From: Astropecten irregularis
Lineage: Eukaryota; Echinodermata; Asteroidea; Paxillosida; Astropectinidae
Reading direction: 5' to 3'
DNA: 64,000 nt
Assembly (NCBI GenBank): GCA_963971285.1
Contig: OZ020256.1
Span: 498,501-562,500 of the forward strand
The translations under genes and the position numbers were made by a program. Of the stretch, positions 2,292-63,339 are shown piece after piece. Below the pieces are notes generated by a model. It did not search any database. It had not been told where the DNA came from and was given only the letters and a program-made list of their open reading frames with translations. Position 1 is the stretch's first letter; each line of letters opens with the position of its first letter.

Positions 2292-2435
2292 ATGGCTACG
2301 GCTGGTGTGGAGATGCTACAACCTCAAGATGATCCATCGTCTATGTTCGGTGGAGAAGGATTGCTCAATGAGTTCTTGGTTAAGATTGAACCGGACTTTT
2401 TGATGGCACCAAATCCAATAGACAACTGGCAAGAG
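2292..2435 (+). CDS. KLF5: KLF5 coding exon 1 (N-terminus)
   Basis: The exon encodes 48 residues from MATAGVEML to DNWQE and ends in phase 0 at a donor reading AAGAG|GTATGT. The ATG at 2292 is preferred: it has G at -3 and G at +4, and the open frame upstream has no other ATG (its earlier TTG at 2277 is not a plausible animal start). Residues 30-34, VKIEP, form a sumoylation-type motif (hydrophobic-K-x-E). The acidic, proline-containing composition fits a transactivation N-terminus. No signal peptide or membrane segment is present. Confidence 0.85.
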
Positions 2436-3753
2436 GTATGTATTGTATTACTATACATCTAATAGTATACTAGCTACTGTATACCTACTATCAATTGCAT
2501 GGAGGAATAAGGAGGGTGATTTTGCGTTTGTAAACCAATTGCATAAATAATCATCAAAATACCCACAAGGGAAACTGACTGAATTGAATTGCATAAATGT
2601 TAACATTGATCATGCATTGACTATAGTTAAATCTAATAATTTACTCTTCTTTGGCTACCATGTACTTTAAGTAGCACTGAGATAATGAAAGAAAAAGAGT
2701 TTCATTTACCTGGTTTTGAAAAGATGTTTAAATTTGTTGATTTTAGTGGGAATTAATTAAGAGAATATTTTGTCTCCCATTCACTTGTGACAGGTGCCAA
2801 AGCAACCATTATTATCATTATCAGAGGACAATTAATACAAGGACAAACTCTTAAGCAGTTTTAGGCACCTGTATCTGACCACAGATTTTTGCATAATTTA
2901 CCCATAATTTATGATAGATTTTCAAAAATGTCCAGCTTTCCTGTTGACTCCTAATTTTAAGTGTAAGACATCAATTAAAATAAAGTGTCAATTTGCTGGT
3001 TTTCACCAAATTAGGCAATTTTTAGTAAGTTACTAAGTTCTTTACTTGTATGGCGTAGTACTACATATAAACAGCCCAAAGATGGTTACACAATTTATGA
3101 AATTCGCAGATGCAATTCTTGTCATGTTATACAAGCTTCTAGTTCTAGTTTGGTTACCCTATGATTTATGATCAATGCAGTCTATTAAAAGCTACTATTA
3201 AAAAAGACCATTATTGGAGAGGTGTGCAGTCATGCTGAACAATCAAACACAAAGACTTGGCCTTTTAGTGAATATAACATAAAGAATAAAACCAAGGTAA
3301 ATATTAGTTTGGCTAGATACTTTTATAACTTCCTCATGAAACTGTGTTTTAAACCATGAACTAATGAAGTTTGGTTTCGGAATGCGATTGTTTGTATTTG
3401 GCTGAAACTTCTCGAGTGAACAATTTTGCAAGGTTATATTATTTTGTGTAAAAAAAGTTTTTCAGAGACCTTAGATTTCTGGTATCAGAAACTTTGGATG
3501 GAAACATTTTATTTGAAGGACTTGATTCTACCATGGAGCTATTAAACAAATAGCATGATTCTACTTGCCATTTTTGCTTAGGGCTTAGGGACGTGTTTCA
3601 ATGTCTTTTTGCTTGAAATAAACTGTCACTGATCATTTCAGCCGAGGTAATACAGGCATCCAATGAATGCTTGTAAGTTGAAAATTAGAACCCAGGCAAT
3701 CCATCTTGAATACTTGTATTAATTTCCTTCTATTTTTCTTGACATTATTACAG
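2436..3753 (+). other. KLF5 intron 1
   Basis: A 1.3-kb AT-rich intron, GTATGT...TTATTACAG, with a pyrimidine-rich tract before the acceptor. It contains one tiny SINE-tail insertion (2549-2586, listed separately). No other coding sequence is recognised. Confidence 0.8.
2549..2586 (-). mobile_element. 38-bp SINE 3'-tail insertion with 12-bp target duplication
   Basis: The 38 bases, including CCACAAGGGAAACTGACTGA, nearly repeat the left end of the SINE at 42322-42450. They are flanked by identical AATTGCATAAAT at 2537-2548 and 2587-2598. Both copies begin AATCATCAAA directly after the duplication, which defines the family's 3' end on the minus strand. It looks like a severely 5'-truncated retroposition. 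A related but diverged piece lies near 29665-29690. Confidence 0.65.
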
Positions 3754-4546
3754 GGAGAGCTTGACAAGTACCTTCCCAGACCAGAGACGGCTAGTCCAGG
3801 AACGATCCTTGCCAACAAGCTCAGGAGAGAAAGTGTGTCCTACATGGATGATCTCTTGGAGGACTGCGACTCCAGATTCTCTCTGAACATTAACGGCAAC
3901 TTCAACGTTGTTTTTCCCCAGACCCATCACTATCAGTGCGCTAAATCGGATATGTACACACAGGAGATGTCAGCTTGCAGGATGAATACTAATAACTGTG
4001 CCAATTCCTGCAGCTACACGGGACAGGACAGCTTTAATCATATGCCTCCTTCTCCAATGGAAGATCTGAATAATAATAATAACTATCCCACAACGATTAA
4101 CGGGGTTTCTATCAAGACCGAACCGCAGGACACTTACACAGCACAGTGCAGTATGCCCTGTAATATGCACATTAAATCTGAACCTATGACACATCATCAT
4201 CAGCATCACTATCCACAGTCAACTATGACATCTGATTGCATACCAACCTTTCCTACTGGCATCGATTTCCAGCCCATAGCAGGAACCCAGACCCAGTTCC
4301 ATAGTCATCAACCTTGTACAAACTCTGTGTTTGGGATGCCACCGACGCCACCTCATTCCCAGCCTGGTTCGCCGGCCGATTTACCCCTGGAGTTTGCTAA
4401 TTGTCATCCACTTCGACCCCCTCCCCCACCGTACACTGTCGCAGTCATGACCAGGCAAGACAAGAAACCAATGACGATGCCAAGATACAACCGAAAGAAC
4501 AACCCTGAACTTGAAAAGAGAAGAATCCACCATTGCAACTATCCAG
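3754..4546 (+). CDS. KLF5: KLF5 coding exon 2 (regulatory region to first finger cysteine)
   Basis: The exon runs from an acceptor TTATTACAG|GGAGAG to a donor CCAG|GTAAGT and encodes residues 49-313, ending in phase 1 inside a glycine codon. It carries the conserved GELDKYLP start, RRESVSYMDDL, and SLNINGNFNVVFP. Two further sumoylation-type motifs are visible, IKTEP (K169) and IKSEP (K189). A histidine/glutamine patch (THHHQHH), MPPTPPHSQPGSP (244-256) and a PPxY WW-binding motif (PPPPPY, 270-275) follow. Human KLF5 is known to be sumoylated at IKTE/IKQE sites and to bind the ubiquitin ligase WWP1 through a PY motif. Conservation of those functions here is inference. The exon ends in CNYPG, the start of finger 1. 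Confidence 0.92.
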
Positions 4547-9145: not shown

Positions 9146-9414
9146 GATGCATCAAAGTATACACGAAATCCTCGCATCTTAAAGCTCATCAGAGGATACA
9201 TACAGGAGAGAAGCCATATCTGTGTACATGGACTGGCTGTCAATGGCGCTTTGCTCGATCTGATGAACTGACTCGTCACTCTCGCAAGCACACAGGCGCC
9301 AAGCCCTTCAAATGTAAGATATGTGAACGTTGTTTCTCGCGCTCAGACCATCTTTCCCTTCATATGAAGCGCCACCAAGAGAAGTGCAAGGACAAGGCTG
9401 CGATTAATAATTAG
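9146..9414 (+). CDS. KLF5: KLF5 coding exon 3 (C2H2 zinc fingers 1-3 and stop)
   Basis: The exon follows a polypyrimidine tract and CATAG acceptor, resumes in phase 1, and encodes residues 314-401 to a TAG stop. Finger 1 uses C309/C314/H327/H331. Finger 2 uses C339/C344/H357/H361. Finger 3 uses C369/C372/H385/H389. DNA-contact segments [16 protein letters not shown] and RSDHLSLH match the KLF consensus, so GC/CACCC-box recognition is expected. The tail after the last finger is [12 protein letters not shown], a few residues longer than the vertebrate KLF5 end. Fingers 1 and 2 sit in one exon, whereas the KLF12-like gene here (and vertebrate KLF5, as I recall) has an intron at HTG|EKP. Confidence 0.95.
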
Positions 9415-10790
9415 GCATTCACTGCAACATTTTTTCCTCGACTTTGATCAAAATCGTTCAAAAATCAGCCAACAAAGTTTAACAAAAAATCAAGCAAAGA
9501 AGTAAATGACCAGCAAAAAAAATGAGCTCTGATGCAAAGAAATGAACCAAATAAAAACTTAGATTAAAATACGGCCATTATGGATTAAAATGCTCAATAA
9601 TCAGTTTTCAAGTATTGAGGATGTGGTTGGTGTAAAAGTACTCATGAATTGGTATTAACACTACCTACTTTTTAACTCATTCTGTCAATTATGAGGATAA
9701 TTTCAGTACTTGTAAAACAAAAACATTGCCTTATATACTTCAAGATATTTGAAGAATTCTTCTTTTTTTGTTCAAACTGGAAAACAAACAAAAATGATTG
9801 GAAAAGGAAAGATTACTATTCTGAAAGGATAAGTTGATGTTTTTTTTACTCCTTTGCTTGACAGAAGGAAAACAGTGTACAAATTTAAGCAAACTATCAA
9901 AGCAATCCCTATATCTGATCAACCAAAGGACAACTGGATCTAAAACAATCATTTTGAATTGTGTACAATTTGAAGTGCATTTTGTCAAAAATGTAAATAC
10001 GATGTAAAACATAAAGTACTGTAACTTGTTTCTATGGCAACGACAATCAGAAAAAAATGAAGGTTTATCGATGTAGATGACTTATCTCTGGGCTTGTACA
10101 AAGTTCAACATGAAACATTCCAATTGTTGATGATTAAAGACATGACTAAAGAAATACAAAATTATGCAAATGGTGTTAATTTGTAATTAAGTCTTTATAA
10201 TGAAACAGGGAAGTGTTAAGATAAGAGATAGGATGTCATGTATTAACTTGTTCTAAAACACGAACTCCAATCATCGTTAAGTACCAAAACAAAGTCAATA
10301 CTTAATCAGTGATGACTTCCTGTGATAAGGTGATTATGACGGCATATTAAGTTCTAATCATTGAATAACACATCTACATGCAGCATGGCCGTTATTGTGG
10401 ACTTCAGTCCCATGCTGCTTGCCACTTGTCTATCAAAATTGATTGATGTGTTCTTGGTTCACTTGCTTGGTCAGAGTACACTAACCTTTCACCAATTAAA
10501 TGTAATGTATGCTAAACAATATTTGTTACTGTCATATATTATTACTATTATTTTGCCAATTTCATACACTATTATCAAACAAAATGTGCTTTGAACAAAA
10601 ATCTAATGTCAAACTAATGTGCTTTACTTGAATTGTATTTTGAATCTTCTCAAATGTTTTTTGAAACAGTTATCCTATGCACCTGCTGGTAAAATGTTCT
10701 GAACTTCATGACAATTGTTATTATTGTTTGTATAATGTCTAATGTTGGATTGCCTAAGGGGTTTCATTAATTATGGGGTTTACGAAACGA

Positions 10791-10862
<72 letters not shown>

Positions 10863-12560
10863 CGGCTCTGTCATCCACATGCTGAAAATATAGGTTTTTC
10901 ATTGAAGCTGAAGCTCTGTTTTCCTATTCAAACCAAAGAATCTACTTCCGAACCGCATTCAAAAGTATCTATTTTGATACCCATTATTTTAGAATAGATT
11001 CTTGAAATTGAGCCTGAGCCTCTATTTCGTAAACGCCCTACGTATCATTCGTCATTGCTGTGAATGGATCTGTGCAGTTCATGACTTGCAGTTTCTTTTT
11101 TCATTGAGAATTATGAAGCTGCCATCGTTCTACAACACGATATGCTAAAGTTTACTGACACTGGGCACTTGACTAAGCCTGTTACCATGGAAACACCATT
11201 GACTCATTTAATGCAGTACTGCTGTGCAATTCTATAAATATTTACGATGACCTCTGCTCTAAATTACCAGAGTAGTAACAAAAGAAAACAAACAAGTACA
11301 TCTTGGATTCCAACTTGGATGAAGGTTATTTCCGATTCAGGATTCAAGATTTACACTTGTGCTTATTGTATCAGATATTTACAGGCATTATCAGATAATT
11401 AGGCCTGGTCAGTGTTTTTTTCCATTTTGTAGAGTAATTTATCTAATCTGTATCTGTACTATGACAAGTGATATCATTGATATCATGTATTGATTAACTT
11501 AATTTATAATTGATTAATTAACTAGTCTTTCTTGTATCTGTATATTCCGTTTTCTTACTTTGACTTTATATATTAAACTGACAAGGGTAAAGTCTTTCTA
11601 AACTGCTGAATGCCACATTCTACATGGATCAACTTTTCCCATCTCTTTCAAACTGCTTTAATTTTTCATTTCAGCCTTGGTAAAATTTTTAATATATTTT
11701 GTGACGAAAAATTAGAATTGATAACTTCAAACTGTTACACGTATACACCACTTCTGACCATTTCTTTAAACCCAAAATAAATAAATAAATGATATTTACA
11801 ATTTGAGAGTAATTTACATATATGTAAAAGGGCAATTTACAACATTTTGGATTTTTGGAACACTTGACAAAACTTTTTTTCAATATTTGGTTGGAGTACA
11901 AAAAAGACGAATTCATTGGAATGGAATATGTGCCTGCTGTGTTAGAATAGCATGATCTACCCAACAACTTTAGGACTTACAGATTACACTGACTATATTG
12001 ATATAGATCAAGATCTACATTGTTTGCCAACTTATTTCTCTTGAAGTTAATGTTTATACTAATACATGTACTTTATAATGAGTAAATCTGGCTAAAACGT
12101 GAAGACTTAATCATAGTTCCTGTGGACTACAATGCAATGCAAAATATGGTATTATGAAATGGCAACAAATGTAATTTCATATTTTAATTTGCAGGGTAAT
12201 TGACAGGGATTATGAAGGTTTCTTTAATCTGTAGCCATATCTATAACAAATATTATTCTATATTAGTTTGCATGTTTATCATGACTATACATTGACTGTG
12301 TACATTCTGTACATTGTAATGCACTGTGTATAAGTTTACCTTTTTCTAACGACTTGTCTCCTTGTGTTTCTAATGGGACGTGTAAATTGTAAAATATTAA
12401 TTTAATGTAAATATTTATATTTTCTTCATCATTTTTGCATATTTTTTATGTACAAAACACACTTTACTTGTTCACTTTTTATATACAAAAAGGACCCTAT
12501 AATTTTCTACTGACGATGAGAAACCCACCAAATTTTGTACAATAAATTGGAGAAACTTTC
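9415..12560 (+). other. Probable KLF5 3' UTR and downstream AT-rich region
   Basis: The sequence after the stop is strongly AT-rich, with AATAAA words at 9550-9555 and 12541-12546. It has Pumilio-type TGTAAATA words at 9992-9999 and 12406-12413 and AU-rich stretches near 11775. Such features are common in long, unstable transcription-factor mRNAs. Where the transcript ends cannot be decided here. A MITE (10775-11038) lies inside. Confidence 0.35.
10775..11038. mobile_element. GGCTCA-TIR MITE, copy B, with expanded hexamer
   Basis: Same family as copy A, 264 bp. The left inverted repeat has grown into an array of about a dozen GGCTCA hexamers (about 10791-10864), while the right end keeps only GAGCCTGAGCCTC. 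Flanks are TAT on the left and TAC on the right. A predicted peptide of alternating Arg-Leu is an artefact of the hexamer. Confidence 0.75.
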
Positions 12561-15500
12561 AAAAGTTCTGCTGATGGAAACTAGTTTTGTTGATTGCGTA
12601 GTTGTCGGGGTTTTCAATCCACAATCCCAATGTCCCAGACAATGGCCGATTCCAACTTATAAATACATTTTGAGGTTCTCATACGGCTACAGGTACATGT
12701 AGATGAGAATGGTTGTGATAAACTCCGACTTTGGAAACAAAATGGCGCCTCATGTTGGGCAGGTGTGAATGTTGGATCTAACTTTGGGACCAGGCATATG
12801 TTGCAATTCTCTCTATAGCTCTGGTTATGCTGTGAGGCAAAGTGGGGACCAGTGATGAATTAGTAACTGACATTCCGTCTTGTATACGAAAGATGCATGA
12901 GGCAAGATGGATCTCTAGCCAGGAAACTGTTGCTCTGCAGAAAAATGCCATGCTTGATAAAAACTGGTTCCCATCTCAAATGTCTTGCTGTTTTCATGTA
13001 GAGTTAATGGTAATACATGAACGTACATTGTAGAATTCTATTTCATTACAAGCAAGGTCATCGTGTTGAGCAAATGGTACGTGCGTGCGTAGCCCTGTGA
13101 AACTGACCCCTGGCTCCCTGTATCCAGCCACAGTTTAACATGAGGATAAGACTACTGACAACCAGCCAAGTTGAGCCAACCATGACATGCATAATTATAG
13201 GCGGGTTCTAGATAGTGAATGTGATTATGGAGGTATTTCTACCTCCATTATGTGATTGAGTAGGCATAATCAGTAGCTAGACGTACAGGACTCATTTTAT
13301 AAAAGAGGACAGATGTTGGAAGGAAGAAAGAAAAAATCTAAGGCTTGTTTGACTCGGACCCTTAACCACTTTATGATCTTAGTTAAGTCTTCATGAATTT
13401 GCCCAAACATCATAATCTAGAATATAACTTCTGAGACACTACCAATGAGTTACATTTACATCAACATCTCTATGCCTCTTCTGGTTCATAGTTCAAACCA
13501 TGAACATGCCTGCACATACATCATGAATAAAGATAAAACCCAGGGCTTCTATTTAATCTGAACATTTTGAAAGTTGCAAGGCCATCCAACCCAGAAGCTG
13601 TGCATAAACTGGGAAAATGATAATGGTGTTTGCTGTGAGTCTAGTTGCCGGGATATCAACTCATAAATAGTTTAGGACTTCTTTTTTTTAGAGTTCTTAC
13701 AATCAAAGAAGCCCAGTATAATTAACCTGTACTAACGTCATAGATAACCAGGCAATATGGAAGGTTGACTTACACAGCTGGTAAAATAAAACAGTAGTAA
13801 GCCTACTCCAGTTTTATATTTAACTAAAAACTTTCAAAATCAATGGTTGACCAGGGTTAGAATTTTTTATGAGACTCAAGAGTGCTCAACATTTGACAAA
13901 AGTTACAAGCTCACTTCTGCTGCAGATGTAATTAATATAAATGAGAAAGGCCGGACCATTTGCAAGCAGATCTTACAAAATGGGTCTTAACGTCTACTTA
14001 ATGTTCACTTTTCCTTTTGTTCAATGAACGGGATGCTCATCTGTTTGTTTCTGTGCAGATATATCATCTACATGCATTACCATGGCAACACGGGGACATC
14101 ATCAAGATGAAAACAGACATTCCCAATGATTGTCATTGTAAAACAACTTTGTAATGGCCCTAAATATAATGCACGATAGGTTTGGCAACTACTGATTCAA
14201 TTTGTCCGTGTTTCCTCTTCAAAGTAGACCTATGGCTAGCTGCAATGAATGAACAAGCACCTGAGAAATCAGGTGGCAAATCTGCGAAAAAAAGGATCGT
14301 GCAGAACATTTTCTTTCCAGCTGACCTCAATTATTAGCAGACAATGGGTTCCCCCAAGCAAGGAATAGCTCATGATTGCTACTGCACACAGGCCGAACAA
14401 GAATTCCATAACTCTCCCAATCCTGCCGAACAACTCCACAAAGCCAACTGTATAGTGAGAGCTGGATTTGAATGTTGATTTAAATGTCTGGCATGCTGCT
14501 GAATATGGCGTTATACATACATTACACATTGTGTACAAGCAAGGGACCTGAAATGAATTCTTTATTTTTTCTCCGGGATTTTTCTCTGAAATCCATGTCT
14601 AGGGTGTCTGAAACTCACTCAAGGTCAGTTATTTCAAGACTTTACATGTTTGTTCAGTTTCCATGCGTCAATCAAAACTTTGCACTATACTCAACATTTA
14701 TGCAATGATGCCGCCAGACGAACATGCATGAACATGTTTTCCCACATAGAACCACAAGAACTTTCAGTATCAGAAGTGAAAAAAGAAAGAAAGAAAGAAA
14801 CGATTTAGGCCTACTCGTAAAGATTCATGAAAGAACACATTATAATGTAAAATTAAATCACATAATTCCTTTGCACACTGATGCAAGTTTGTGTTATCTT
14901 TCACATTCTTGACTTTCTATGGGTGAATAACATCATTTTCTGATGCATATTTTTCTCTAATTCAGTTCCCTCCTAGACCTTACAGTAATCTTTTGTGGAA
15001 TTGATACACTGGCCATGGACAGAGCACAAACAAGTTCAACATCTCCATTTCAGAGATGTTTTGGTGCTTTGCCTCAAGTTTATTTTGTCAATTCAATTTT
15101 GGCAGCTCGGCTCCTAACCACACTTCCGCATCTTATCCAAACAAAGCTGAAATCTGGTCCCCCCAGTTCAAATTCTGCCAACACACAAAGGGAACTTTAA
15201 TACTTAGACCAGGCAAACATATTCAGGAGAGCAGCCTCGATACTGAATTCCGATTGGACAAGGGTCGGTGGCCATCTTGGTTGTCAAGAGGAACACAACT
15301 GGTGACCTGAATCGAGGGAGACAAAACATCAATCAGTGCCAGGTGCCAGCCAAGGGCCAACTTGACCCAGAAACAGGGAATGGAAGTAAATCCCCATACA
15401 GTCAGTGAAAGGGAGTCCAGGACTGATATGAAGGTATGCAGCTAGCTCGGTCCTGATCAGGTATATTTTTGTAGATCAATCAAAGAGACTAGAAGCAATA

Positions 15501-16223
15501 CATCATTCCAACACTTCAAAGAACACAAAGTTGAGCCTTTAGGTTGTATTTCAAAGAGGCATACACAAAATTGACAAAAATCCTGTTCATACTAAATATA
15601 CATGGTCAAATAACACGGGCATATAAAAAGAAGAGCTAAATAATTGAGACTTGTCTCACTGGGTGGTCAGATGATAACTGGGATCTTCTTTTAACCCCCA
15701 AAATTGGCCCCAAATCAATCTTGAAAGCTTGAACTTTTCCAACGAAATGGACTTTCAGTTTCAGTGATTTACCAAAAGTACATACAGGGTGAACTGCCAA
15801 TAATCCTGCGCCCCCCAGATGCAAGAATGCATGGTGGTACATTAGACCATGGTTCATGATATGAAGCCAAGTTGTGAGTGAGTGAGTGTTGGAATTCTCT
15901 AAAGGCTTGGAGAGCAATGTTTCTGGTCCTGATCCAAAAAAAGAGGTGTTTTTGTCTCCTTGCAGCATAAACTGATTCAAATGTGAGGTCTTGGCAGTTG
16001 ACTGTGTTATCAGAGATAAAGACTGTGTTTATTACAGGCTTGTGACCTAGGGAGTAATGTTGGTTTGTCAGGTATCTGATAGCAGGTCTTCTTGTTGTCA
16101 AGCTGACCCACTTTCACTGCTCAGGGTCAGTTTGTCCTGGCCAACAGCTTCTAATAAAATAGACTTGTCCCAGTCGTCTCTTGAACTTTTCCAGTGCCCA
16201 TAGGATACTAGGATGGGAAATTA
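12561..16223. other. Intergenic, no gene seen
   Basis: No recognisable protein or RNA gene. It contains a small (GAAA)n tract near 14779-14800, a GTGAGTGAGTGAG tract near 15875 and a short inverted repeat around ATGGAGGTA near 13222-13252. Remaining open frames look like chance. Confidence 0.45.
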
Positions 16224-16349
16224 TAATGGGAGACTTTGGAGAACCGGTCTTCGAGTCAACAGCGCACGCGCAAAACAAAGCGCGAATGCTCACAATTGCG
16301 TGCGCGTGTGCTGTTGACTTGAAGACCGGTTCTCCAAAGTCTCCCATTA
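16224..16349. mobile_element. Hairpin MITE (126 bp, near-perfect arms)
   Basis: Two arms of about 50 bp starting TAATGGGAGACTTTGGAGAA and its complement, with few mismatches, enclose a short GC-rich centre with GCGCACGCGC and GCGTGCGCGTG. No reading frame. It is a typical tiny non-autonomous DNA element, and the RNA would fold into a long hairpin. Confidence 0.65.
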
Positions 16350-19300
16350 CAACCACTTCACAACAAAATTCTTTTTTAAGTTTTCAAATCTAACCAGATA
16401 GTGTTGTTTTCTCTGCAAAACGGCAAATTTCCTAAGTCAAAATTGTACACTGCATCTGGTGCAAACAGGCTTAGGTCTGGGAAGTGGTAACCATGACTAC
16501 AACATGGACACAGTAGTTACCATGGATTCAAGGGATGGAAAACAGCAGGCGTCATCCTGTGTGACCACAGAACATTTGTACAGAAAAAGACTATCAAACC
16601 TGTTACGTATCTCTAGACAACTTACTTTGGTCTCTTACATCCTAATCCTTAAAGGTACTATCATACCTTGGTAGCATACTGAAACAGAAATCTTCACAGA
16701 TTTACCTAAAACTTATATGAGGGTATAAAGGTGGTGATGGTTGGAACATACCATGTACCGATTCAGATACATGTAAGAGAACGAGTAACAGACCAAATGA
16801 GATATGGATTGTAGTTGGCCCTGTTCCGAATTGTCATTCGATCACCTTGAAATAACTGTTAGTAGACAACAGCAGTTTACAGCACCAAACCCAAGAATTT
16901 GAACATTTGTACATTATTGCAAACGTCATCCAAAGAATGCTGTTGATGACAACTGTATATTTTTAGATACAAGATTTTGGTCCTGGATCAAGCGGACGTG
17001 ACGGCATCAATAGGCACAGCAAGGACTGAACCCATCTGACAAAATGGTGCCAAAGTCACAAGCCTTTGTAGAGATCAAGACTTGAGCTCTGCAGAGCATG
17101 GATGAGCGATGATGCTGAAAATGATCGAATGCCCAAATGGCACAATTCACATCAGAATATAATTATGTCGATCTTCAACAGAATCTGCAGGTGAATAGTG
17201 AGATGTGACTTTGGGTCCAATTTTACTAAATGAATTCTGTCACGCAATCTTTTAAAAAATTCATTTGGAACGTGTTGATGAACAACACATTCCGAGTCAA
17301 ATGAGTGGAACCAAGACTTCATATCATAGCTATTTGTATGACACACAATAGTCAGGTGCCAGGCTGTGTACCATTATGAGGAGGTCTACCGCTACATAAA
17401 AGTTTATAAAAAATTAATCTATTCACACCATTGCGTGTGAAAAGACGGGACTCATTTCGAGCAATCAAATGAATTTGACAATGGAAAATTTATCCCTGAA
17501 CTTCTTTATGAAAAAAAAATTATTAGTTATGAAATTCTGGAGCGACATGAGTGGGCTAAGCATGAATACTTCTATTATTCACTCATGGGCGGCATCCTTT
17601 GAATTCATGAGAGAGGTCGTTTCATTGTTCACCAAAGAGAAATGTTGATGTGGTTTTCTTCCCTCAAATACGCAGACAAAGTGCTTAATTTAACCCATTA
17701 ATGTTTTCAAATCAAGTGCAGACTTTGTGGTTTTGAAGTCTGTGATGTGGAATTTCTTACCAAATAATTTTTTGTCTGATGACTGGAGATTATTTAAGTG
17801 ACAAAAATCGTCTTTACAAGTAAAGAAAAAACTGCTGCAAACTGCTAATCAACCAAAATAATGACCTGAAATACGTAAATTAGGCCTACTACGGAGCTCG
17901 AGGGTCTGACATTTTGATCATAGCAGCATCTTCCTCAAAGAGAAAAAAGTCTTAGGCCTTCCTAAGTTCCTAAGTCAGAGCAAAAGAAATTCTCCTGAAA
18001 AATGAAGGACATGACATTGACCATGAGTGCCACAAATCACACCCAAGTTCGTGGAATGAATGATATGTAGGCCTACTTGCAGTTGCCAGTTTTACTTTTA
18101 ACAGTTGCCTCAGCGTTTTGATCAAGTACTGAATTTAACAATCAAATGATTTTTTTTCTGGGGGGGGGGGGGGGGGAGGGGATACAAAGTCACATTTGCT
18201 TTTTAACGATAGAGCCTATGGCGATAATGACTTTCTTTGACGTGCGATTCTGACGCAAAGCTTTTAATCAACGCTGAAAAATGAAGATCAATCTTTTCAG
18301 AAGTCCCTATTTGTGGCCGACCTGATCAATCACTGACAGAAGCCAGCAAGGCCCTGCTGTAATGTAGTTCAGTAGAGCATTGAGAATACGAGGGGGAGGG
18401 GGGGGGGACACATCAAATAGTTGAAAATGGGTCGTGCAGGAATAATCAAATACAGAAATACAGATTATTATCAGTGTAGACATCAATACTGCCGGCTGCT
18501 AGCGATAAACTCCTATATCAAGTTGAGCGCAGGCCTATTCAGGTTATGGCTAAGAATAACATCCAGATAACTATAGGGGCTACACAATGCAAACACGCGT
18601 GGGCAGCCGTTGCCAAGAACTGGCTAACATCACAGCCCCCAACATTTTAACAACAATTTGAATTTAGTCCTTCTTTTTTCTTATTTTTCCGTGGCCCAAT
18701 TTACACACGGATAAATCAATTTGATTTTGTGGGTTTTTGATTGTTTATCTGTTTTGCTGAATTAATATAAATCATGAAATCAAGGGTGTATTTTGAACCC
18801 CTTGGTGTCCGTCAACGGCTGGTACTAGATAAGAGAGAGAGGACTTGTTGGAAAGGGCAGGTATATATATCTCAAGTGGTCAAACAACAGGCTTTGAAGG
18901 TGACAATTATATAAAGTACAACAACAGACCCTCAAACATGATCTGTATTTGTGAAACTTGCTAGCAGTTATTGCCCAACAATGGCCAAGTTGCTCTACTT
19001 GACCATGAGACAAGCTGCACCATTTACTACTACGTACTACCAGCACTCAACTCCAAGGCAATGACCATTTTTATCTTATCATCACCCAAGCTGCAAGCAA
19101 TTACATCAAGCATTTCTTAGCTCACATCATCTCATACAACATATTCAGAATAAATTCATTTCTTAATCTTTAGAGGTATAATACATGATTGGTAAAGGTC
19201 ATAGAACACTCACACTTTGTCTGATCCAGCATGTGCATGAAATAACAAACCTGTGAAATTTTGAGCTCAATTGGACATCTGAGACACGAAAATGGAGAAA

Positions 19301-21008
19301 ACGTGACTCATTTTTTCTTTCAAAAAAGATCAAAAAAGTTTTTAGTCTTTGTTTGGCTAATTTCTCTATAAATACAGCATTTCAGGCATACTTTAACAGT
19401 AAGTTTCTACCAGCACCATCTTCAAACCCTGAAAGTATATCGTAAATCTGTGAACATTTCTGTTTGGGTATGTAACCAATCCTGTACTGTACCTTTAATA
19501 TGCAACTAATTTGTGTTAAATTGTGCTATTAAAGTCATTGTCTACTATCATATGCACATTAGGTCTGGGAGATGAAATAGCAGAGTTAGATATACCTCAG
19601 AATAAATATCTTCAAAATACTATCTCCTATTAAAATTAGATCTATAAAAGTATTTTTTTGCTACACGGCACACATTTGTATTTACTATTCTTTGAAGCAT
19701 GTAGTATTAGTCATTTTAATTTCAACCTTCGTTAGACTGTAAACGGCAATATCTATAGGGTCACCTTCACCTTCAATTGCTAGCCTCTATTTGGACCCAC
19801 TGGGCCATAAGGTTGTAAATGTGTAGTGTATTATTCTTGTACCGACAAAAAAATAAATAATTTTCTCGATATTAATTTCCAAATTATCTTTGTAAAATGC
19901 ACAAAAGACAGAAAACCACAAATGACAATTTCACATAGATATTGGCGCAAACCTGACTTCAGCGATATTACAGGCAGTGGACACTGTACCAAATGAAGTG
20001 AAACGTACCGGACAGATAACAATGGGTCATTGTATTCCTTTTGTTGTTGTAAGAGTGGGAACGATATGTTTCTTGGTTCTCACATGGATTCTCACAGGTG
20101 GGTGGTTTTCATGACCATGAATCCATTCAAATTGGACAGACTGACTTATCTAATTGACAATCATTTCTGAAAGAGTGGCCGGCATACCGGCAACAACGAT
20201 GCTAAATTTAGATTGCCGCAATTTAGCAATTTTTTCCCAGCGTTCAAGCCCTGCCAGTTCCCACGCCAACACCCAAACATTTGTGGTTTAAATCCCTAAA
20301 ATCTAAACATAACTCCAGGAGCTTAAAGACTCAGAACTTGTTGGTTGCTCCTTCTAAATACTCCACTAAGTAGTTAATGATATATTTTCCTTTGCAGAGA
20401 TGAAATTTTTAATTTTCTTTTGGGCCTGCTAAAAACGTCACAATTCTGCATTGTCCCATTCAAATACTGGCTCATTATTTAAATCATGGTAGAATGATGT
20501 TTGATGTTTCAACATAATTTGCATTTTTTTGTCGTAAAATTGATGGGTTTTGCTGATATTCTGGGTTATCAAATCACCATGCATTCTGCTGCTTTTCTGC
20601 AAACTAAAATCGCATATTTGATAGCCTAGAATTAATATTCAAATGAGGTTTTGTCTTTTAGTTTTATGTTCAGTCACTGCTTAATTATTAACAGTGAAAA
20701 TTAATCACTAGCTGACAAAACTAGTTCAGTATGGGGAACTTTTGACTTTCCGTTTGACTACACCCACAATGTTATTTACCCAATGCGATGATATTTATTT
20801 CATGAGCTCAAAACAAAAAGATTGAAACAAGACCTTTCCAGCTCATCAGAGCTGAAAAACCTGCCCTAAAACATTCACCCATAGCAAGGAACAATGTCTC
20901 CATTGTGATCCCAAATCCCAAGTCTGGAACATGAGAAAAACAAAAATAATGAGCCACAAATAAATACAAGCAATGATGAGTAACAACCCATCATGTGTAC
21001 ATATCTGC
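16350..21008. other. Intergenic, no gene seen
   Basis: AT-rich, no coding or RNA gene recognised. Contains a 17-base G run at 18160-18176, a second G-rich tract near 18390-18408 and a copy of the CTGAC-TTTGATC dispersed repeat at 17896-17945. Confidence 0.45.
17896..17945 (+). repeat. Dispersed CTGAC...TTTGATC...AGCAGGATC repeat, copy 1 (diverged)
   Basis: Reads as a diverged version of the sequence at 53808-53860 (GAGGG-CTGACgCATTTTGATC, then AGCAGGATC-like and CATCAAAG-like words). Other copies are at 50588-50628 and 63876-63927 in the opposite orientation. Confidence 0.4.
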
Positions 21009-45205: not shown

Positions 45206-45354
45206 AATAGGGCTCAGATGTTCGGACAAACAAGTCATACGTCATATACCCAACTTACACATAAACATGGCACAATTTGTCCGAACATCCGGGTAACTAT
45301 AGCTGTCGATATAAATGGTGTATTCTATAAATAGCTCGAGCGTGGAGCCCTATT
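45206..45354. mobile_element. Small MITE with AATAGGGCTC termini
   Basis: Ends are AATAGGGCTC and GAGCCCTATT (with one base inserted), and an inner pair GATGTTCGGACAAA / TTTGTCCGAACATC strengthens the fold. About 149 bp, non-coding. Confidence 0.5.
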
Positions 45355-46209
45355 ACACAGACCTAAGATAGGATGAGTGCAATCATTATATAAGAATGCT
45401 AAACTGAATGCCTTGCTCCAATCCAGACTTGAGAAGGAGACTACTAACCAAAACCCATGACCCAAATTGACCCCACAGCCTAGACAGATGAAAACTAATC
45501 TACCAAATGAACAAGACTGTGGCAGTCATTCATTACATAAAGGTGCCGTCATCTCATCATACAGATATCTAGGAGAGTGAAATGTCCCAGTGCTAAGTAA
45601 ACACTGGGTCAGTACTGCAGCAATACAAATGAACAATCTCAGTTTTTCTGTGACTGAGACCTTGCACAAATTATCTGGCTTTGGCTTGGAGGTACTGGCA
45701 TCTGTGGTAGTTGCTGCAACCACTTTCCATAGGCTCAAGTGTAGTTACAAGCCAGAGCCAGATAATAAGGTCATCCAGGTACAAGAATACTAAATCAAAT
45801 TGCATTATGTTTAAATGTCCCCCTTGCAAAACACACACACTAAAAGCACGCATACCCACACAGACATAATAGAATCATTTGAAATCATTACAAATATAAA
45901 CACAAATTGATTCTTAAGACACATAAATACATCCAGGATTACACATCCTGTGTACTTTCAATCACTCAGCTTAATTCTCATCAGCGCTTCCTATCCATTA
46001 CAAGTCTTCTGACAGCAAATTGCTATAAATAAACACAATTCTACACAACACAAATGAAACTACTGTTCTCCATGGCAACCGTGTACGATTCCTATCTACA
46101 AATCCACTAAAACCCAACTCAGAGTGCTTGATTCCTTCAAGATTTAGAAAATGAGAAATGATTTGAGTTGTAAAAGCTAATTTGAATAACAATTTTGTTT
46201 TGAAGTATT

Positions 46210-46295
46210 TTGAGTTAATGAGTGTCAATTTGAGTAATGAGTGTCAATTTGAGTAATGAGTGTTGATTTGAGTAATGAGTAGTGAGTGGTGATTG
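46210..46295. repeat. 20-bp minisatellite, about four units
   Basis: Unit TGAGTAATGAGTGTCAATTT repeated head to tail about four times, with the last unit degenerate (AGTAATGAGTAGTGAGTGG). Confidence 0.75.
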
Positions 46296-47036
46296 CTGGT
46301 GCAAAGAAGACAGAATAGCAAAGATATTAACTATTTTGGCCTGCCAACATTTTGTTTTGATGAAACCATGTCTAACACGAGATATAATTAGATACTGTAC
46401 GGATCCAGACCTGAGCTCATTGCTGGAGATTGGAACCAAACCTTTCTCTGGATTGTGTTGGGTTTTAGTGGACTGTGAAAGCAACTTCACTCGCCATAAA
46501 CCTAAGACATTTGAAAGAATTACAGCCATACAACTATAAACTAATAATAATTCTTAACAACATAAACAAAAATATTGTCAATACAAATGAGCAATGTCTC
46601 TGCGTTTGGATCACAAACATTGAAAAAGACTGCAAAAAACTGCTCGTAACAAAAAGTTTTCAAACAGACACCATTTTACAAAAACTCATCTTTACATTAA
46701 TTTGTTTAAACATAAACGTGCTACTGAGTACATGAGGTATATTTTCGTATAAATATCTGCATTTCCATTCCTGGAACACTCCATCAAAATCACTTTGAAC
46801 CTACACCTTCACCTTTTGGCAGTGATACGCTGGTTGTCTGTTTCAACTAGTTACAGTTAATGATAACTAGTAACTAGGTTGATTAAACCAGTTCAATGTA
46901 TAAAAACTTTTCAAAGCAGACTATGTTAGACACTACATTTTAATGCACTCTACTGGTGGTTCAACAATTCAAGAACACTTGAGATACGTTGTTTGAGAGT
47001 CACTTCCCTTTGCCACCTTCAAACACCTGACCCTAT

Positions 47037-47271
47037 GGGCCTTTTCCAAACCTCGGCTCCGGCTCCGGCTTCGGCTCCATTTCGCGACTCCATTTTTGAA
47101 TAACAGGTATCAAAATAGAGGCTTTTGGTTACGGTTTGGAACTAGATACTCTATTTTGAACAAGAAAACAGGGATTCAGCTCCGATGAAAAGCCACAACC
47201 TACATTTCCAGCATATGGATGACAGCGCCGAAGCCGGAGCCTGAGCCGGAGCCGAGGTTTGGAAAAGGGCC
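47037..47271. mobile_element. GGCTCA-TIR MITE, copy G, with TAT target duplication
   Basis: 235 bp; left GGGCCTTTTCCAAACCTCGG, right complementary CCGAGGTTTGGAAAAGGGCC. TAT lies at 47034-47036 and again at 47272-47274. This best-preserved copy supports a 3-bp T-W-A-like duplication, as made by PIF/Harbinger-type transposases (the superfamily link is inference). Confidence 0.8.
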
Positions 47272-47329
47272 TATGTCTCCCTGCCATTTCTCACTTTACA
47301 TATTTGTTCAGTTTTTCTTGTCTCTATAG

Positions 47330-47583
47330 ACCGATCTGACGGCACGATATACTCTCCGCCATAACTGCAGTGTCCCCGCCTGCCTTTTGTTCGGCAACAC
47401 AAGAATTTACGCTCAGCCGCACTGTATAATTGCAGGGTGTAAGTCCCATGATTAGGGGACGTACACCATGCAGTATAGAGTGCAGTGGACGTTAATTCTT
47501 TTGTTGCCGGACAAAATACGAGCGGGGACACTGCAGTAATGGCGGGTGTTTCCTACATCCATGGTCGCGCCGTCGGATCGGTG
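47330..47583. mobile_element. Long hairpin MITE with ~110-bp imperfect arms
   Basis: Termini ACCGATCTGACGGC and GCCGTCGGATCGGT; inner pairs include ACTGCAGTGTCCCCGC / GCGGGGACACTGCAGT and GCAACACAAGAATTTACG / TTAATTCTTTTGTTGC. About 254 bp, non-coding, only 58 bp from the MITE at 47037-47271. Confidence 0.65.
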
Positions 47584-49198
47584 TTTAACTTTTCCATCTC
47601 AATCTCTTACATTCCTCCTTCATCTTGCTAATGCTAAAATTAATAAACAACAAAAACAAACAAACAAACGAGATTGCTAATATTGATTCACAGCCATTTA
47701 GGATCCCAACATTAAAATTATTTCTTCCAAGTTCCAAGTAAAGAGGGGTGAGTTGTTTTGTTGACATTTGATAAACATCTAGCACATGCTACATGAATTG
47801 GGCATAATATAATCAACACTGCATCGACCGGATGCTAGACTTGCAACTTACGGACACAGTTCATCATGCAAATTGCTATCTGGGCATAAGTTAAACCTCT
47901 TAACCAGATACGTCTAACCAACATTTTCTTTGAAGCACAGAAAAGGATATTTGGCCTATTAGTTATGACAAAATGTCGGTTACATCATTATTGACTTAAA
48001 TTATTTGATTATTCAACAGAGATTAATTTCATACGTTAAGAACATCAGTATAAGGTATTGGAGATGGATCGCTAATGTAAAAAGCTTGCCAAATGCTTAC
48101 CAACCCTTACTTTGTAAATAACAATAACAATAATCAATAAATACCAATAAAAAACAACAACATAAATAAACAACAATAGAATAGCTTCAGTGACCTTTCC
48201 CTATCAGGTCATTTCAAGGAACTGAAATGATACGTGGCAGGTTCACATTAAAAAATTTGCACAATATTATTACTAGCCCAATCATAATACAATTCATTAT
48301 TGGTACACAACTTAAGCATTATTAATCGGTATATTTACAAAAAAAATATATATTTACAGGATATTATTATTCAATCTTGTTAAATTTTTATACAGACACC
48401 GCATTGCAAATCTTTTGGGAAGTAAAGTTGGAGGGAACTAAAGACTATAAGGAGCCAAGCTCACTAACAGTGCAATGAGCAACCAGTATAATGGACGACT
48501 CCAATGATTGGTCAATGCCCACAGTTTGATTGACAGGTCAGAAGGGACCATTGTTACCCACAGACAATGGTCAAGAACATTAATGTGGGTGTAAAGTTTC
48601 ATTCAATGAGAATGCTCAGAATCTGGTGATTGCAACAGTTGAACTTAAGAATCATGATATTCAAATCCAGACAAATCCGTAAAAAAACAACCCAAAATAG
48701 TAATACCTCCCTAGCAAATATTGAGATTAACGTTGTGAACAATGGTGCAGGACAAACAAGGAGACTAAAGTGATTCAAGTGCGGGAAAACTCTTTGTGTC
48801 AATGATTAATTATACTTGAGCACAGTTCATACTTCAGGCAAATTGCCAAGTAAAGCAAACATTTGCTGCAAATATCCAGTAGTAACATCAATGTTGCCTG
48901 GCATGGGGTGCTAGGATGACAAATGAAGTGGGCAGATTTAGACAAGATTGAGAAATATACAAGTGAGCATGTTTCATTGGGATCTAGGGTTGTTGACTTG
49001 TTAATATGATGGTATTAGTGTATTTGAGTATGTGGATCTAAACCTAAAGGCACAGTCTTGCTGGTTTATCAATGGCTGTATCGTTGTCCTCATCTGTGCT
49101 AGAGTACAGGAAGGAAACATTGAACTACAGAATAGACTGGAGTCGTTGGGACTAATACCGGTTTGTCAGCAACCAACCATTAAAGTTCCAGCTGGACC
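47584..49198. other. No gene seen; may include KLF12-like 3' flank
   Basis: AT-rich with A-rich stretches near 48100-48180 and 48330-48360. No coding frame or bounded repeat recognised. Confidence 0.4.
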
Positions 49199-49354
49199 CG
49201 GTGTGGCAGTCTCAGCTGTCTCCAGGTCTCAGCTGTCCCTCTTACCAAATACGGTAAAACACGGAAAGTCGTCCATTTATTAAAGTGGTGTGCTGATGTC
49301 CAGCTACGACAGGGGGACAGCTGAGACTGGGAGACAGCTGAGACCGTCACACCC
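49199..49354. mobile_element. Hairpin MITE rich in CAGCTG
   Basis: Left arm GGTGTGGCAGTCTCAGCTGT plus CTCCAGGTCTCAGCTGTCC; right arm GGACAGCTGAGACTGGGAGA plus CAGCTGAGACCGTCACACC. Four CAGCTG E-box words result. The loop contains TTTATT at 49276-49281, which is AATAAA on the minus strand and so a possible poly(A) signal for the KLF12-like transcript about 0.7 kb past its stop. Confidence 0.6.
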
Positions 49355-49499
49355 GATTGCTGAGTCTCAACTGAAACAAAGATTTCCAGGGGCATAGACG
49401 AGCTTGCTGATGAAAGGGTGCGTAACCATTATTCACATAGCATTGGTATGAAGTCTGCATAGTGAATACCTTCCGTGTGTTGCAGCTGGCTACGTGTGT

Positions 49500-49665
49500 A
49501 GCGCCCTCTTGTGTCCATGTTGTTCCTGTAGCGAGTGCAATTGGGTCGACGAAGTGTACATGAACAGCGCCCTCATGGTCCATGCTATTAGTGTCTCTAA
49601 GCTGTCCACACGAAGAGCGCCCTCTATTGTCAATGCTGTCTACATGAAGAGCGCCCTCTATTGTC
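49500..49665 (-). promoter_or_regulatory. Cluster of four CTCF-core-like motifs in degenerate tandem units
   Basis: The word AGCGCCCTC occurs at 49500, 49566, 49616 and 49650 (spacing 66, 50, 34 bp), each time followed by related sequence; the last two share AGCGCCCTCTATTGTCAAT. On the minus strand these read ...AGAGGGCGCT (one as TGAGGGCGCT), close to the known CTCF core. All four point the same way, 330-500 bp downstream of the KLF12-like stop codon. Binding is inference; the tandem units themselves are plain in the sequence. Confidence 0.45.
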
Positions 49666-49995
49666 AATTCCGTCTACATGGTTGAATGCCCTCCTGTTTC
49701 CGTGATGTTTCAATCTTCGATGTTGCCAAGGCTACCAGCATGGCGCGACATCAAAATGGTGGAAAGCTGCGACGAATCACGGGCAGCGTGTCCACCACGC
49801 TCAGCAGACAGACTGCTGAGACTTGTTCAAATAATGGTAACGAGGCAGAGAGATAACATAACGCATCTCTGCAATATTGTCTGTTGCCAATCCCGTACAA
49901 ACAGTATGTACACATATTTCCTGCATTCCTCGTAATAAGAAGGGAAAACAGGACTGGCAACTCCGACGCAGGGCCCCACTGGACAGTTTTCTTCC

Positions 49996-50325
<330 letters not shown>

Positions 50326-52635: not shown

Positions 52636-52832
52636 CTGTGTGAGTTCTCATGTGAGCCTTGAGATGTGAGCTTTTGGTGTAGACTTTGTTGCAGCCCTGG
52701 AACGTGCAGCGATGCACCCGGCGCCGCTTGCCGTTGTCTAGTACAAGTTCTGTCACCGCCCTGGTACCCCGCAGGATGGTTTCCGAAGACGATGTCCTCC
52801 TAGCACTGCCAGCGTGCCATGGACCCATTTGT
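52636..52832 (-). CDS. KLF12: KLF12-like coding exon with zinc finger 1
   Basis: Acceptor TTTCTTCACAG, exon of 197 nt starting at the third base of a codon, donor ACACAG|GTGAAT in phase 1. It encodes [20 protein letters not shown], a short linker, then [16 protein letters not shown] and [17 protein letters not shown]. Finger 1 is C-x4-C-x12-H-x3-H. The basic KRRR just before it is a likely nuclear-localisation element. The serine/arginine-rich upstream part has no recognised motif. Confidence 0.95.
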
Positions 52833-54710: not shown

Positions 54711-54876
54711 TCTGCTGCCTGAGCAACTTTTATCAGTGCCCCCGCCCCACTTTTGGTGATGCTTTCCAGGGTGACAGTGGGCCTGTCGTCCTCTTCTCTG
54801 CCTGGTCTACGTTGGACGGGAGAGGATGATGCTACAATGGTGTTGGCTCTCTTCTTGGCATCGACAGGGCCATCAT
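54711..54876 (-). CDS. KLF12: KLF12-like coding exon with conserved pre-finger block
   Basis: Acceptor CTTGTTCACAG, 166 nt, phase 1 in and phase 2 out. It encodes DGPVDAKKRANTIVASSSPV, QRRPGREEDD and RPTVTLESITKSGAGALIKV then AQAAE. The acidic stretch followed by P-x-V-T-L-x-S closely parallels the DDDDLPNVTLDSV block upstream of the fingers in KLF12, as I recall it. That supports the subfamily call independently of the fingers. A bipartite basic pair (KKR, QRR) may aid nuclear import. Confidence 0.9.
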
Positions 54877-56151: not shown

Positions 56152-56275
56152 CCATGTCTGATGCATCGGATGATCGCTTGCTACTTCCATGACCTCTTGT
56201 TCCGTTCATCGAGAGGTCCACAGGTTCTGTCTGGTATTCCTCCTCTGGATGTATAGATGCTGATGATAAATAAGG
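56152..56275 (-). CDS. KLF12: KLF12-like coding exon with CtBP-binding PVDLS motif
   Basis: Acceptor ATTTCCTCAG, 124 nt, phase 0 in and phase 1 out. It encodes PYLSSASIHPEEEYQTEPVD, LSMNGTRGHGSSKRSSDASD and M. EPVDLSMN (PVDLS codons at 56210-56224) is the classical PxDLS docking site for the CtBP corepressor. In the family it sits in KLF3, KLF8 and KLF12, always N-terminal to the fingers as here. YQTEPVDLS even resembles TQTEPVDLS of KLF12. The serine/basic run after it is unassigned. Confidence 0.9.
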
Positions 56276-60543: not shown

Positions 60544-60924
60544 AACCCTGTCCGCACTGGACTTTTTGGGGCAAAGTTACCGAGACGCTGCGTACTTTAC
60601 CCATTTTAAGTCAAGTACGGACGTCTCAGGAAGTCTTCCTTTCAGTTACTCTTCCTGACCAGCGCGGGTATTTCTACCAGCCAACTTCTGCCCAGGAAGA
60701 ATTTCCGAGACACTTTACCGGAGACGAAAAGTCCAGTGCGGACAATGCGAGTCCAGTGCCCTCATGGGCCTAGTATTGACAGCTCGGTAATTCTTCCACG
60801 CATACACGGTTAAGTTACCCGAGTGGAAAGTCCAAGTGCGGACACCGGCAATATTTGCCCATTTTTCATTTACCCATCGGCTCGGTGAAACCCCCGGAAA
60901 ATAAAGTCCAGTGCGGACAGGGCT
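60544..60924. mobile_element. Harbinger-like MITE with TAA target duplication
   Basis: 381 bp; left AACCCTGTCCGCACTGGACT, right AGTCCAGTGCGGACAGGGCT, flanked by TAA at 60541-60543 and 60925-60927. Two further internal copies of the terminal word occur in right-end orientation (AAAAGTCCAGTGCGGACAAT near 60729 and AAAGTCCAAGTGCGGACACC near 60827). No transposase frame. Confidence 0.75.
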
Positions 60925-63252
60925 TAAGCACCTTAACTGGTCCCCTCTAACTAGATGCTATACCCAACAAGATCCAACAGTATTTGGAGGAGAGGCTAGG
61001 GTCTAAATAGTCTTCTGATAAGCAAAAAAAATAAATTAGTTCAAGTTCGAGAATGAGCCATTTAGGTTTAAAGAAATGTACATGTATCGCTCATAATCTG
61101 CCTGTGATTGAGAGCTGACAGATTTAACTTTTGGAGACCTTCCGTCGTTAGTCAGAATCAAAGCTCAATCCATCTTCATTGAGTCTCCCAGATCTTGTCT
61201 ACATTAGGTCCGTATAATTCTTAATACCGTTTCTAATGAGTCCTGGCATTACAACTTCATCATTATTAACTGCAAACTGGGATAAAACTGTCAAAAATGC
61301 TCCCAAACTTCTCCCTCTTTTAAATTGCCTTATCCGCAGGGTAATAAAAATGGGGGTTCAATCCCTCCGATGACAAATATCGACATGGATGATGGGGGCA
61401 GGGTTTCATACCGCCTACCGCCTACTGCCTACCATCGCACGGCATAGCCAACATGTACAGCATATTTCAATCCAATATTAGTACGATTTGCTCTTTGGGG
61501 GGATGGGGATGGTAGTGAGTCTGATAGAGCAAAAGGGATTTAAACCTTTTCACGGGGGACGTCGAAACTCATGAAAAAAATTACAGTTAATGCGTGTATT
61601 CGCAGTTCACGGCCTGTTCAAAATGTGAGTAGAAGTCACATGGGCTGACACTTATGTATAATGCATATTAACAAGTCACATGACACATCAACCTGCTGTT
61701 CATTGGCTTAAACCTCCACAACAGGAGTTGTTCTTCGGCCACCTGAAATCTCCAGACCTGCGGGCGCTCTTCATGACATATTGCACTGATTTAGGGCTTG
61801 TGCATTTCCACAGTTTTATTGTTAGGCAGAAGCCTCCTCACTAGCCCAGTCAGGAAAGACTCCCACCCTTGTTCTGTCATGCCCCTCCCCTTTTCTACGG
61901 TAAACCAGTCAACCAGACTGTGCATCTTGTAGTGGCCGTTGACAGTCACTGACAGTGCTTACCACTCTAGCAGGGAGACCTCTTAAGACATGAGTTCTTG
62001 GGAATACAACGTCTAATCCTCCTCGTTCGTTCCTTGGAGGCTTGAAGCTCCTGACAAGTATGGGTCAATGAATTATGGCAAATGGGAAGGGAGGAAAGGA
62101 GGGAGGAAGGAGGAGTAGAGGATGTCCCACTTGGGACAATCTGTCTATCATCATCCCTGAGTAAATGATCATGTTTTATCTTCTTTACTTTCTACAAGGA
62201 AGTCTTCTCCTTATCCACAAGGGGCAATGATTATTGGTCTTATCAGCAGATGGGAAGAAACACAGCGCCATCCACAAAGCATTTGCTCTGCTCAAAGTAC
62301 ATGTTTTCAGGGGATTTTCATCGCAAGAAGGAGTAACTAGCTGCCACGCGTTCAATACACTTGCATTCTGGCTGCTGAGAAGGTACAAGTATCTTGAAAG
62401 AGAATGTGAGCCACAAGAGATGCCAAGGATGATATGGATGCAACCCAAGAGCAAACCACAGCGGGATGGTTTGTCTGGAACTTGAAAAGCCTGGGCTACA
62501 TTCTCCATTTGAAGGTTGAGGATCATCAGAAAATAATCAAGTTGAATAATGAATACATTTGCAGCAAGGCCAAAATATACCAAGGCAAACATAGAAAGGT
62601 AAAGGCTGTGGCCTTATTGAAAAATCCAACCCACAGAATAAGGAATTGATATCAATGTTTACATTGGAATCTAAAAACTGCTCCTGCACCCCTTTCAGAG
62701 TGTGAATAATACCACAGACACCTCATGGGGTAGTCACTTTTAAAATGGTATATTTCATATCATTAGGTACATTACCAATCTTAACCAACTCAAATCAAAA
62801 TCAAAATCAAAAGACAACTAATTCAGGCCTATATGGCTGTGTCCAATTCCAATGTTTTAGTATACGGCTAGGGCTTTTCTTTGTAGTTCACGAATGGGGA
62901 TATAATGAAGACGTAGCACAATAATGGGCTGGATTCAGACAGGACATGTGTGATGGATTGCTTTACAATCACATGACTGAACAGGCTGACCATTGACTTG
63001 ACTTGTAGCCGATTCAGCAACTCAACTCTCAGGCAGTCAAATCAGTTTGCACTGACATCTTATGCATGCAATTGATACCAATATATAAAGACTTCTGATA
63101 ACCAACCAGGGTGTTTCGGTACCAGAAATCAGACATGCACTAGCATCGGCTTTCACCATTTCCGATGGAAGACATCTTAAATAACAAAAAGAAGACAATA
63201 CATGCAATGAAGAGGTCCAAGCTACATGCCAGGGCCAAGTTCATGCATGTAC

Positions 63253-63339
63253 CTTGTGTTTTTCTCTGCTTACGCCTCTGTACACAATGACCCCATCCTG
63301 ACGACCAGAGGATATTGAGTTTACATCATCTTTGTATTG
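63253..63339 (-). CDS. KLF12: Candidate upstream coding exon of the KLF12-like gene
   Basis: On the minus strand an acceptor-like TTTATCCCGTTACAG is followed by 87 nt open in one frame and then AAG|GTACAT. The exon would be phase 0 at both ends, which fits exactly onto the phase-0 start of the PVDLS exon. It would encode QYKDDVNSISSGRQDGVIVY then RGVSREKHK. I recognise no family match, and the donor deviates from GTRAGT, so this may be chance. No ATG start is visible, so true first exons would lie beyond the window or be missed. Confidence 0.35.

Follow-up and report, generated by a model that had tools for sequence, protein, structure and literature searches.

A KLF5 gene on the + strand and a KLF3/8/12-type gene on the − strand lie tail to tail, around 40.6 kb that contain no recognisable gene, in the genome of the sea star Astropecten irregularis. 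The window analysed here is a stretch of 64,000 nucleotides (positions 498501-562500 of contig OZ020256.1, called C20 below; C20 is 18.85 Mb long, in an assembly of 475.7 Mb and 168 contigs). The two genes are very probably the orthologues of KLF5 and of the ancestor of KLF3, KLF8 and KLF12, and their convergent arrangement very probably dates back at least to the last ancestor shared by echinoderms and vertebrates. An earlier note on this DNA had supposed that the pair predates vertebrates, and this is supported: the host is not a chordate, and, in the excerpts of the papers cited here and below, human KLF5 and KLF12 stand on either side of a 600-kb region devoid of genes (PMC4853421), and chicken KLF5 and KLF12 are placed on chromosome 1, 211,361 bp apart, in a table from which the strands are absent (PMC10177326).

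The two KLF genes and the stretch between them

The KLF5 gene consists of three exons on the + strand with GT/AG splice sites, whose joined frame is open and encodes 401 amino acids (aa). Exon 1 (2292..2435) begins with the ATG, so that the start at 2292 given in the earlier note stands; it contains a KIEP motif and remains open up to its donor GT. Exon 2 (3754..4546), delimited by splice sites and alignable with KLF5, contains the blocks ELDKYL...RRESVSYMDDLL, PPTPPHSQPGSP and RYNRKNNPELEKRRI, and exon 3 (9146..9414), recognised by its splice site and C2H2 matches, encodes fingers 1-3 and the stop. Exon 2 ends inside finger 1, at YPG|C, with a phase 1 intron; human KLF5 presumably has an intron at the same site. 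Outside the fingers, the protein aligns with KLF5 over 298 columns (E-value 5e-15), followed by KLF12 as the next best (0.054), the search set for such non-finger comparisons being five human proteins. The KLF5-type blocks E(L/M)(D/E)KYL, RR(D/E)S.S, PP.PP.S.PGSP and RYNR..NP(D/E)LEKRRI are present. The three KLF-type C2H2 fingers are identical to those of human KLF5 in 69/84 positions and to those of KLF6 and KLF7 in 68/84; human KLF5 fingers 1-3 are also available from PDB entry 2ebt. Gene model and non-finger blocks agree with the earlier naming of this gene as KLF5.

At least four exons make up the gene on the − strand; their splice sites are canonical, their phases agree, and 219 aa were recovered from them. 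The PVDLS exon (56152..56275) encodes QTEPVDLSMN with a CtBP-type motif, PVDLS itself occupying 56210..56224 in the translated frame; the next exon (54711..54876), supported by splice sites and by alignment to a human KLF12 sequence, contains the KLF12-like block DDRPTVTLESITKSGAGALIKVAQAAE; the finger 1 exon (52636..52832) ends at THTG|EKPY in phase 1, and the last exon (49996..50168) encodes fingers 2-3 and the stop. A CtBP-binding PXDLS motif is described as common to KLF3, KLF8 and KLF12 (PMC3820594); the PVDLS of the − strand gene has this form, and its binding to CtBP is predicted from the sequence. The gene matches KLF12 in two non-finger blocks standing in the same order, one of them beyond the CtBP motif: the block around EPVDLS has an E-value of 9e-4 and the block around TVTLESITKSGAGAL one of 8e-7 (KLF3 and KLF8 next, 0.13), and the second block covers 42 columns with 38% identity.

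Since the PVDLS exon opens with an acceptor and a start codon was not identified, the model lacks the 5' coding part of this gene. Frame inspection and comparison with the human N-termini of KLF12, KLF8 and KLF3 (best E-value 0.42) did not reveal the 5' exon or exons in positions 56276-64000 of the window or in the 30 kb beyond; the end at 63339 proposed in the earlier note was not adopted, since no coding or start exon was found there. A 34-bp tandem repeat (2.4 copies, 49601-49680) lies less than 400 bp 3' of the stop codon and possibly belongs to the 3' untranslated region.

The placement of the − strand gene in KLF3/8/12, a prediction that draws on sequence likeness, is supported by the non-finger blocks and by elimination, and the earlier recognition of a PVDLS-bearing gene of this class holds on the same two grounds. 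The KLF loci of the genome were sought among 1070 candidates, 150 of which were scored, a coverage that leaves some room for further copies. They include KLF6/7 on C16 (55/58 to KLF7, a far better KLF6/7 than the − strand gene), KLF1/2/4 on C17 (77/84 to KLF2), KLF15 on C1 (69/84), KLF10/11 on C22 (51/58) and KLF9/13 on C21 (49/58); no other KLF3/8/12 candidate ranked high among those scored. With each of the five other KLF classes represented on a contig other than C20, elimination likewise assigns the − strand gene to KLF3/8/12. The phase 1 intron of this gene at THTG|EKPY has an acceptor at the same site in the KLF6/7, KLF10/11 and KLF9/13 loci, and it is absent from the KLF5 (exon 9146-9414), KLF1/2/4 and KLF15 loci of this genome; its loss was dropped as an identity mark of KLF5, because KLF1/2/4 and KLF15 lack the intron as well. 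On C16, with KLF6/7 at 7.39 Mb, five SP-type finger loci were observed at 14.08-18.23 Mb; the open frames of two of these are long.

The intergenic stretch (9415..49995) measures 40,581 bp from stop to stop and contains no convincing Pfam match. Six-frame Pfam scans of it (18 translated pieces) gave a single match, of low complexity and far below its cut-off (19.9 bits, where 100 are required); the same kind of scan of 49201-57302 on the − strand, used as a positive control, found zinc fingers in two of three frames. A gene with only non-Pfam domains or very short exons would escape such a scan. Rfam at gathering thresholds and ARAGORN gave 0 matches each. The tail-to-tail layout around 40.6 kb with no recognisable gene, as described in the earlier note, is confirmed by the gene models and the six-frame scans. 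A dispersed repeat, composed of GAGCCT/AGGCTC hexamer runs with a shared flank, has copies in the gap and occurs in both orientations; it was observed at 4600-4800, 10790-11020, 26625-27240, 37258-37542 and 47066-47270 of the window, one copy thus being located in intron 2 of KLF5, and beyond the window at C20:476360-476755, and it yields chance open frames rich in Pro-Glu or Leu-Arg.

The chromosomal setting on C20

Nine genes that we take to lie on human chromosome 13, eight in 13q21-22 and BRCA2 in 13q13, served as linkage markers. Eight of the nine were found, and six of these eight are located on C20. BRCA2 (0.94 Mb), TBC1D1/4 (1.51 Mb), DACH (8.18 Mb) and UCHL1/3 (18.0 Mb) were identified by sequence matches, and so was DIS3 (1.46 Mb), for which a PDB search gave 65 bits for RRP44/DIS3 versus 31 for DIS3-like 1. 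LMO7/LIMCH1 (8.87 Mb) rests on a short match (51/167 positions, E-value 3e-5), and a Pfam rescan of this locus in a poorly chosen frame gave no match. Eleven paralogous loci that the same searches found serve as controls, namely DIS3L, DIS3L2, SKI, a SKOR-like gene, BAP1, UCHL5 and the five other KLF classes; the names rest on comparison with known sequences, except for the PDB evidence for DIS3, and the count excludes generic zinc-finger genes and the SP-type loci, all examined ones being on C16. None of the 11 controls is on C20, as against six of the eight markers (Fisher p 0.001). C20 makes up 4% of the genome, and the binomial probability of six in eight is 1e-7 if genes are taken as independent and evenly spread.

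The six markers lie 0.41-17.5 Mb away from the KLF pair. DIS3 and TBC1D1/4 are 50.5 kb apart, almost 1 Mb from the pair, which is not between them; in human, DIS3 and the TBC1D1/4 gene flank the KLF5-KLF12 pair, one on each side. UCHL1, TBC1D1, LIMCH1 and KLF3 occur together in human 4p13-14, a set that fits this block as it was prior to the genome duplications of vertebrates. In chicken, KLF3 and KLF8 are reported to be collinear with KLF5 and KLF12 (PMC10177326). The sea star pair thus sits in an old chromosome block whose content is recognisable in human chromosome 13 and whose local order is largely shuffled. In such a block, linkage of KLF5 and KLF3/8/12 is expected; their adjacency, with the markers 0.41-17.5 Mb off, is not simply unbroken local order and is most simply explained by a joint move of the two genes. 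Two positions on C20 would come to lie 50 kb or less apart by chance about 0.5% of the time, orientation not counted.

Upstream of KLF5, a frame with a fucose pyrophosphorylase domain ends 12.8 kb before the ATG, and a cyclic-nucleotide-gated channel frame lies beyond it. In the 30 kb past the other end of the window, inspection by eye of frames of at least 105 aa revealed no gene; no Pfam scan was made there. The C-terminal exon of UCHL1/3 occurs in two versions (C20:17996813-17999827), probably by tandem duplication.

Persistence of the pair

We favour, as an even call when taken whole, the reading that the pair is old and was kept adjacent by a regulatory landscape of KLF5 in the gap that discourages breaks. 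The distal control elements of KLF5 would be located in the empty stretch, and selection would act against breaks that separate KLF5 from the distant border of the landscape, which the tail of the KLF3/8/12 gene marks; the KLF3/8/12 gene itself may be a target of the landscape or a bystander. A review citing Hi-C data (Zhang et al. 2018) states that amplified super-enhancers of the human stretch share a topologically associating domain (TAD) with KLF5, and not with the promoter or the whole gene body of KLF12 (PMC8750285), so the desert is best described, in human, as the landscape of KLF5; a risk variant in the desert has been associated with DIS3 expression (PMC10218095). By analogy, the gap may contribute to the control of KLF5 in the sea star, and this role may be what made the pair persist. 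More tentatively, pair and gap might together form a regulatory unit that, from the deuterostome ancestor or an even earlier one onwards, has been moved around undivided, with the 40-kb gap as a compact counterpart of the 13q22.1 desert.

Several observations weigh against the old pair held by a KLF5 landscape. A single conserved pair is little to generalise from. BORA and MZT1, neighbours of DIS3 in human, are off the contig of the pair, on C30 and C19, respectively; CLN5 was matched neither here nor in the controls and is uninformative as a marker. In the best tree of the fingers (23 rows, 15 human and 8 from this genome; 84 columns), the KLF5 of the window joins KLF6/7 with a support of 60/84, and the − strand gene branches off at an unresolved fork, not within the clade of human KLF3/8/12. 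The fingers of the latter are identical to KLF7 in 71/83 positions and to KLF3 and KLF12 in 70/83, and a PDB search with them found generic multi-finger proteins first, the best KLF chain being KLF5.

That PDB search was set aside as a test of subclass, since generic multi-finger proteins lead it; there is no three-finger KLF3/8/12 chain among the 55 PDB chains listed. The finger-only tree was set aside as a judge of orthology as well: 4/20 inner branches are starred, and 84 columns hold too little signal. Among seven clade statements, one was already in the tree (60/84), and the six subjected to the approximately unbiased (AU) test were not rejected (p-AU 0.118 to 0.372), including the KLF5 clade forced for the + strand gene (0.372). 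Forcing the − strand gene into KLF1/2/4, KLF6/7 and KLF15 gave p-AU values of 0.314, 0.262 and 0.118. The KLF tree proposed as a check in the earlier note, run here on fingers, failed to settle the placement: the forced KLF3/8/12 placement is not rejected (0.307), and the best tree leaves the gene outside.

A serious rival, though the less likely reading, is that the pair persisted neutrally, in an old and slowly rearranging block where no break between KLF5 and KLF3/8/12 was fixed and no regulatory glue acted. The block is conserved as a whole, with six of eight markers on C20, from BRCA2 (13q13) to UCHL1/3 and LMO7 (13q22 or 4p13), and slow rearrangement accounts for these facts with fewer assumptions. 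The gap takes up 0.019% of the genome in human, 0.020% in chicken and 0.0085% here. It scales roughly with the genome, from 600 kb in human (PMC4853421) and 211 kb in chicken (PMC10177326) to 40.6 kb in the sea star, which is how neutral DNA that stretches or shrinks would behave. The fifteen-fold contrast put forward in the earlier note is mostly a matter of genome size, to which about 6.5-fold of it is due. Against neutral persistence, the other markers are shuffled over 0.4-17.5 Mb, so that the survival of one adjacency with its orientation is unlikely by itself; this argument is weakened by the fact that the KLF pair is a single pair, chosen because it was noticed.

Shared regulation, in which common enhancers in the gap drive both KLF5 and KLF3/8/12 and neither gene can leave, appears unlikely. 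The convergent layout around one empty gap would suit it, and SiHa cells, with human papillomavirus 16 (HPV16) integrated at LINC00393, lend it weak support, as KLF5, KLF12 and TBC1D4 are listed as down-regulated there (PMC8691139). The human super-enhancers, located in the TAD of KLF5 and apart from the KLF12 promoter and whole gene body, speak against it; the shared regulation suggested in the earlier note was not borne out, the human data described favouring KLF5 as the target (PMC8750285).

Another doubt concerns the identity of the − strand gene, which could be a different KLF, e.g., a local inverted duplicate of KLF5 with a kept or regained CtBP motif, its likeness to the human arrangement being partly coincidence. 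The KLF1/2/4 and KLF6/7 placements were not rejected, and a clade of KLF5 with KLF3/8/12 (p-AU 0.273), likewise not rejected, would fit an ancient local duplication; however, two KLF12 non-finger blocks are present in order, one beyond the CtBP motif, the remaining KLF classes are taken, and no rival KLF3/8/12 candidate stood high among the 150 of 1070 scored, and we regard a different identity as highly improbable. A separate origin of the neighbourhood in the sea star lineage and in vertebrates is scarcely credible, even though fly linkage appears lost or absent and ancestral adjacency is thus unproven in protostomes: two events would be needed that brought the same partners together, side by side and in the same orientation, within a block common to both lineages in any case, and proximity alone on C20 has a chance of about 0.5%.

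Some mitochondrial-type loci were observed elsewhere in the assembly. The mitochondrial COX1 gene on C168 gives the familiar TNHKDIGT only when read with AAA as Asn and ATA as Ile, which corresponds to the echinoderm code, also used by flatworms. This COX1 is directly preceded by several tRNA genes and followed by ND4L- and COX2-like frames, as in the sea star arrangement. A COX1-family gene at C131:32162-33484 (552 aa) is without TGA, unlike the mitochondrial copy, and its contig is possibly bacterial; a partial COX1 with 7 TGA codons, located in a large contig (C25:9951047-9952018), has the appearance of mitochondrial DNA copied into the nucleus.

Significance and comparison with known arrangements

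The human KLF5-KLF12 stretch carries breast and pancreatic cancer risk variants and amplified KLF5 super-enhancers, and the excerpts of the literature cited here contain no statement on its evolutionary age. A 40-kb echinoderm version would be small enough for element-by-element tests in embryos, which would tell age by KLF5 regulation from age by mere lack of breaks.

Fly CG12029 and CG9895 are located on different chromosome arms. CG12029 is described as KLF5 and CG9895 as KLF3/8/12, and Daphnia as having no clear homologue of CG12029 (PMC2889900). From the fly and Daphnia together, arthropods give no support for the pair. The excerpts of open-access literature on synteny, invertebrate KLFs and echinoderms that were available describe no invertebrate KLF5-KLF3/8/12 pair.

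The two genes are convergent neighbours in the sea star, and their adjacency recurs in the excerpted human and chicken data, which amounts to conserved microsynteny. Human KLF5 is taken to be on the + strand and KLF12 on the − strand, tail to tail as here. A TAD that contains KLF5 without the KLF12 promoter is consistent with this order (PMC8750285), and in 13q22, as in the sea star, KLF5 and a KLF3/8/12 gene directly adjoin each other across an interval free of genes (PMC4853421). The differences lie in the gap, 600 kb versus 40.6 kb, and in the copy number, KLF12 being one of three vertebrate copies where one gene was found here. The next gene is also different: in human we take it to be PIBF1, whereas the sea star has the fucose pyrophosphorylase-domain gene and the cyclic-nucleotide-gated channel. 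Chicken chromosome 1 shares the adjacency of KLF5 and KLF12; it comes without strands and represents the same vertebrate copy as the human one. Genomic regulatory blocks and ancient bilaterian microsynteny around developmental transcription factors, as outlined in the excerpts (PMC5585340, PMC8851819), resemble the present case in the old pair, the large empty gap and the transcription factor at its edge; the sea star pair differs in that the two partners belong to a single family of transcription factors. An arrangement of this kind is thus known already, and the echinoderm KLF5-KLF3/8/12 pair is a new case of it.

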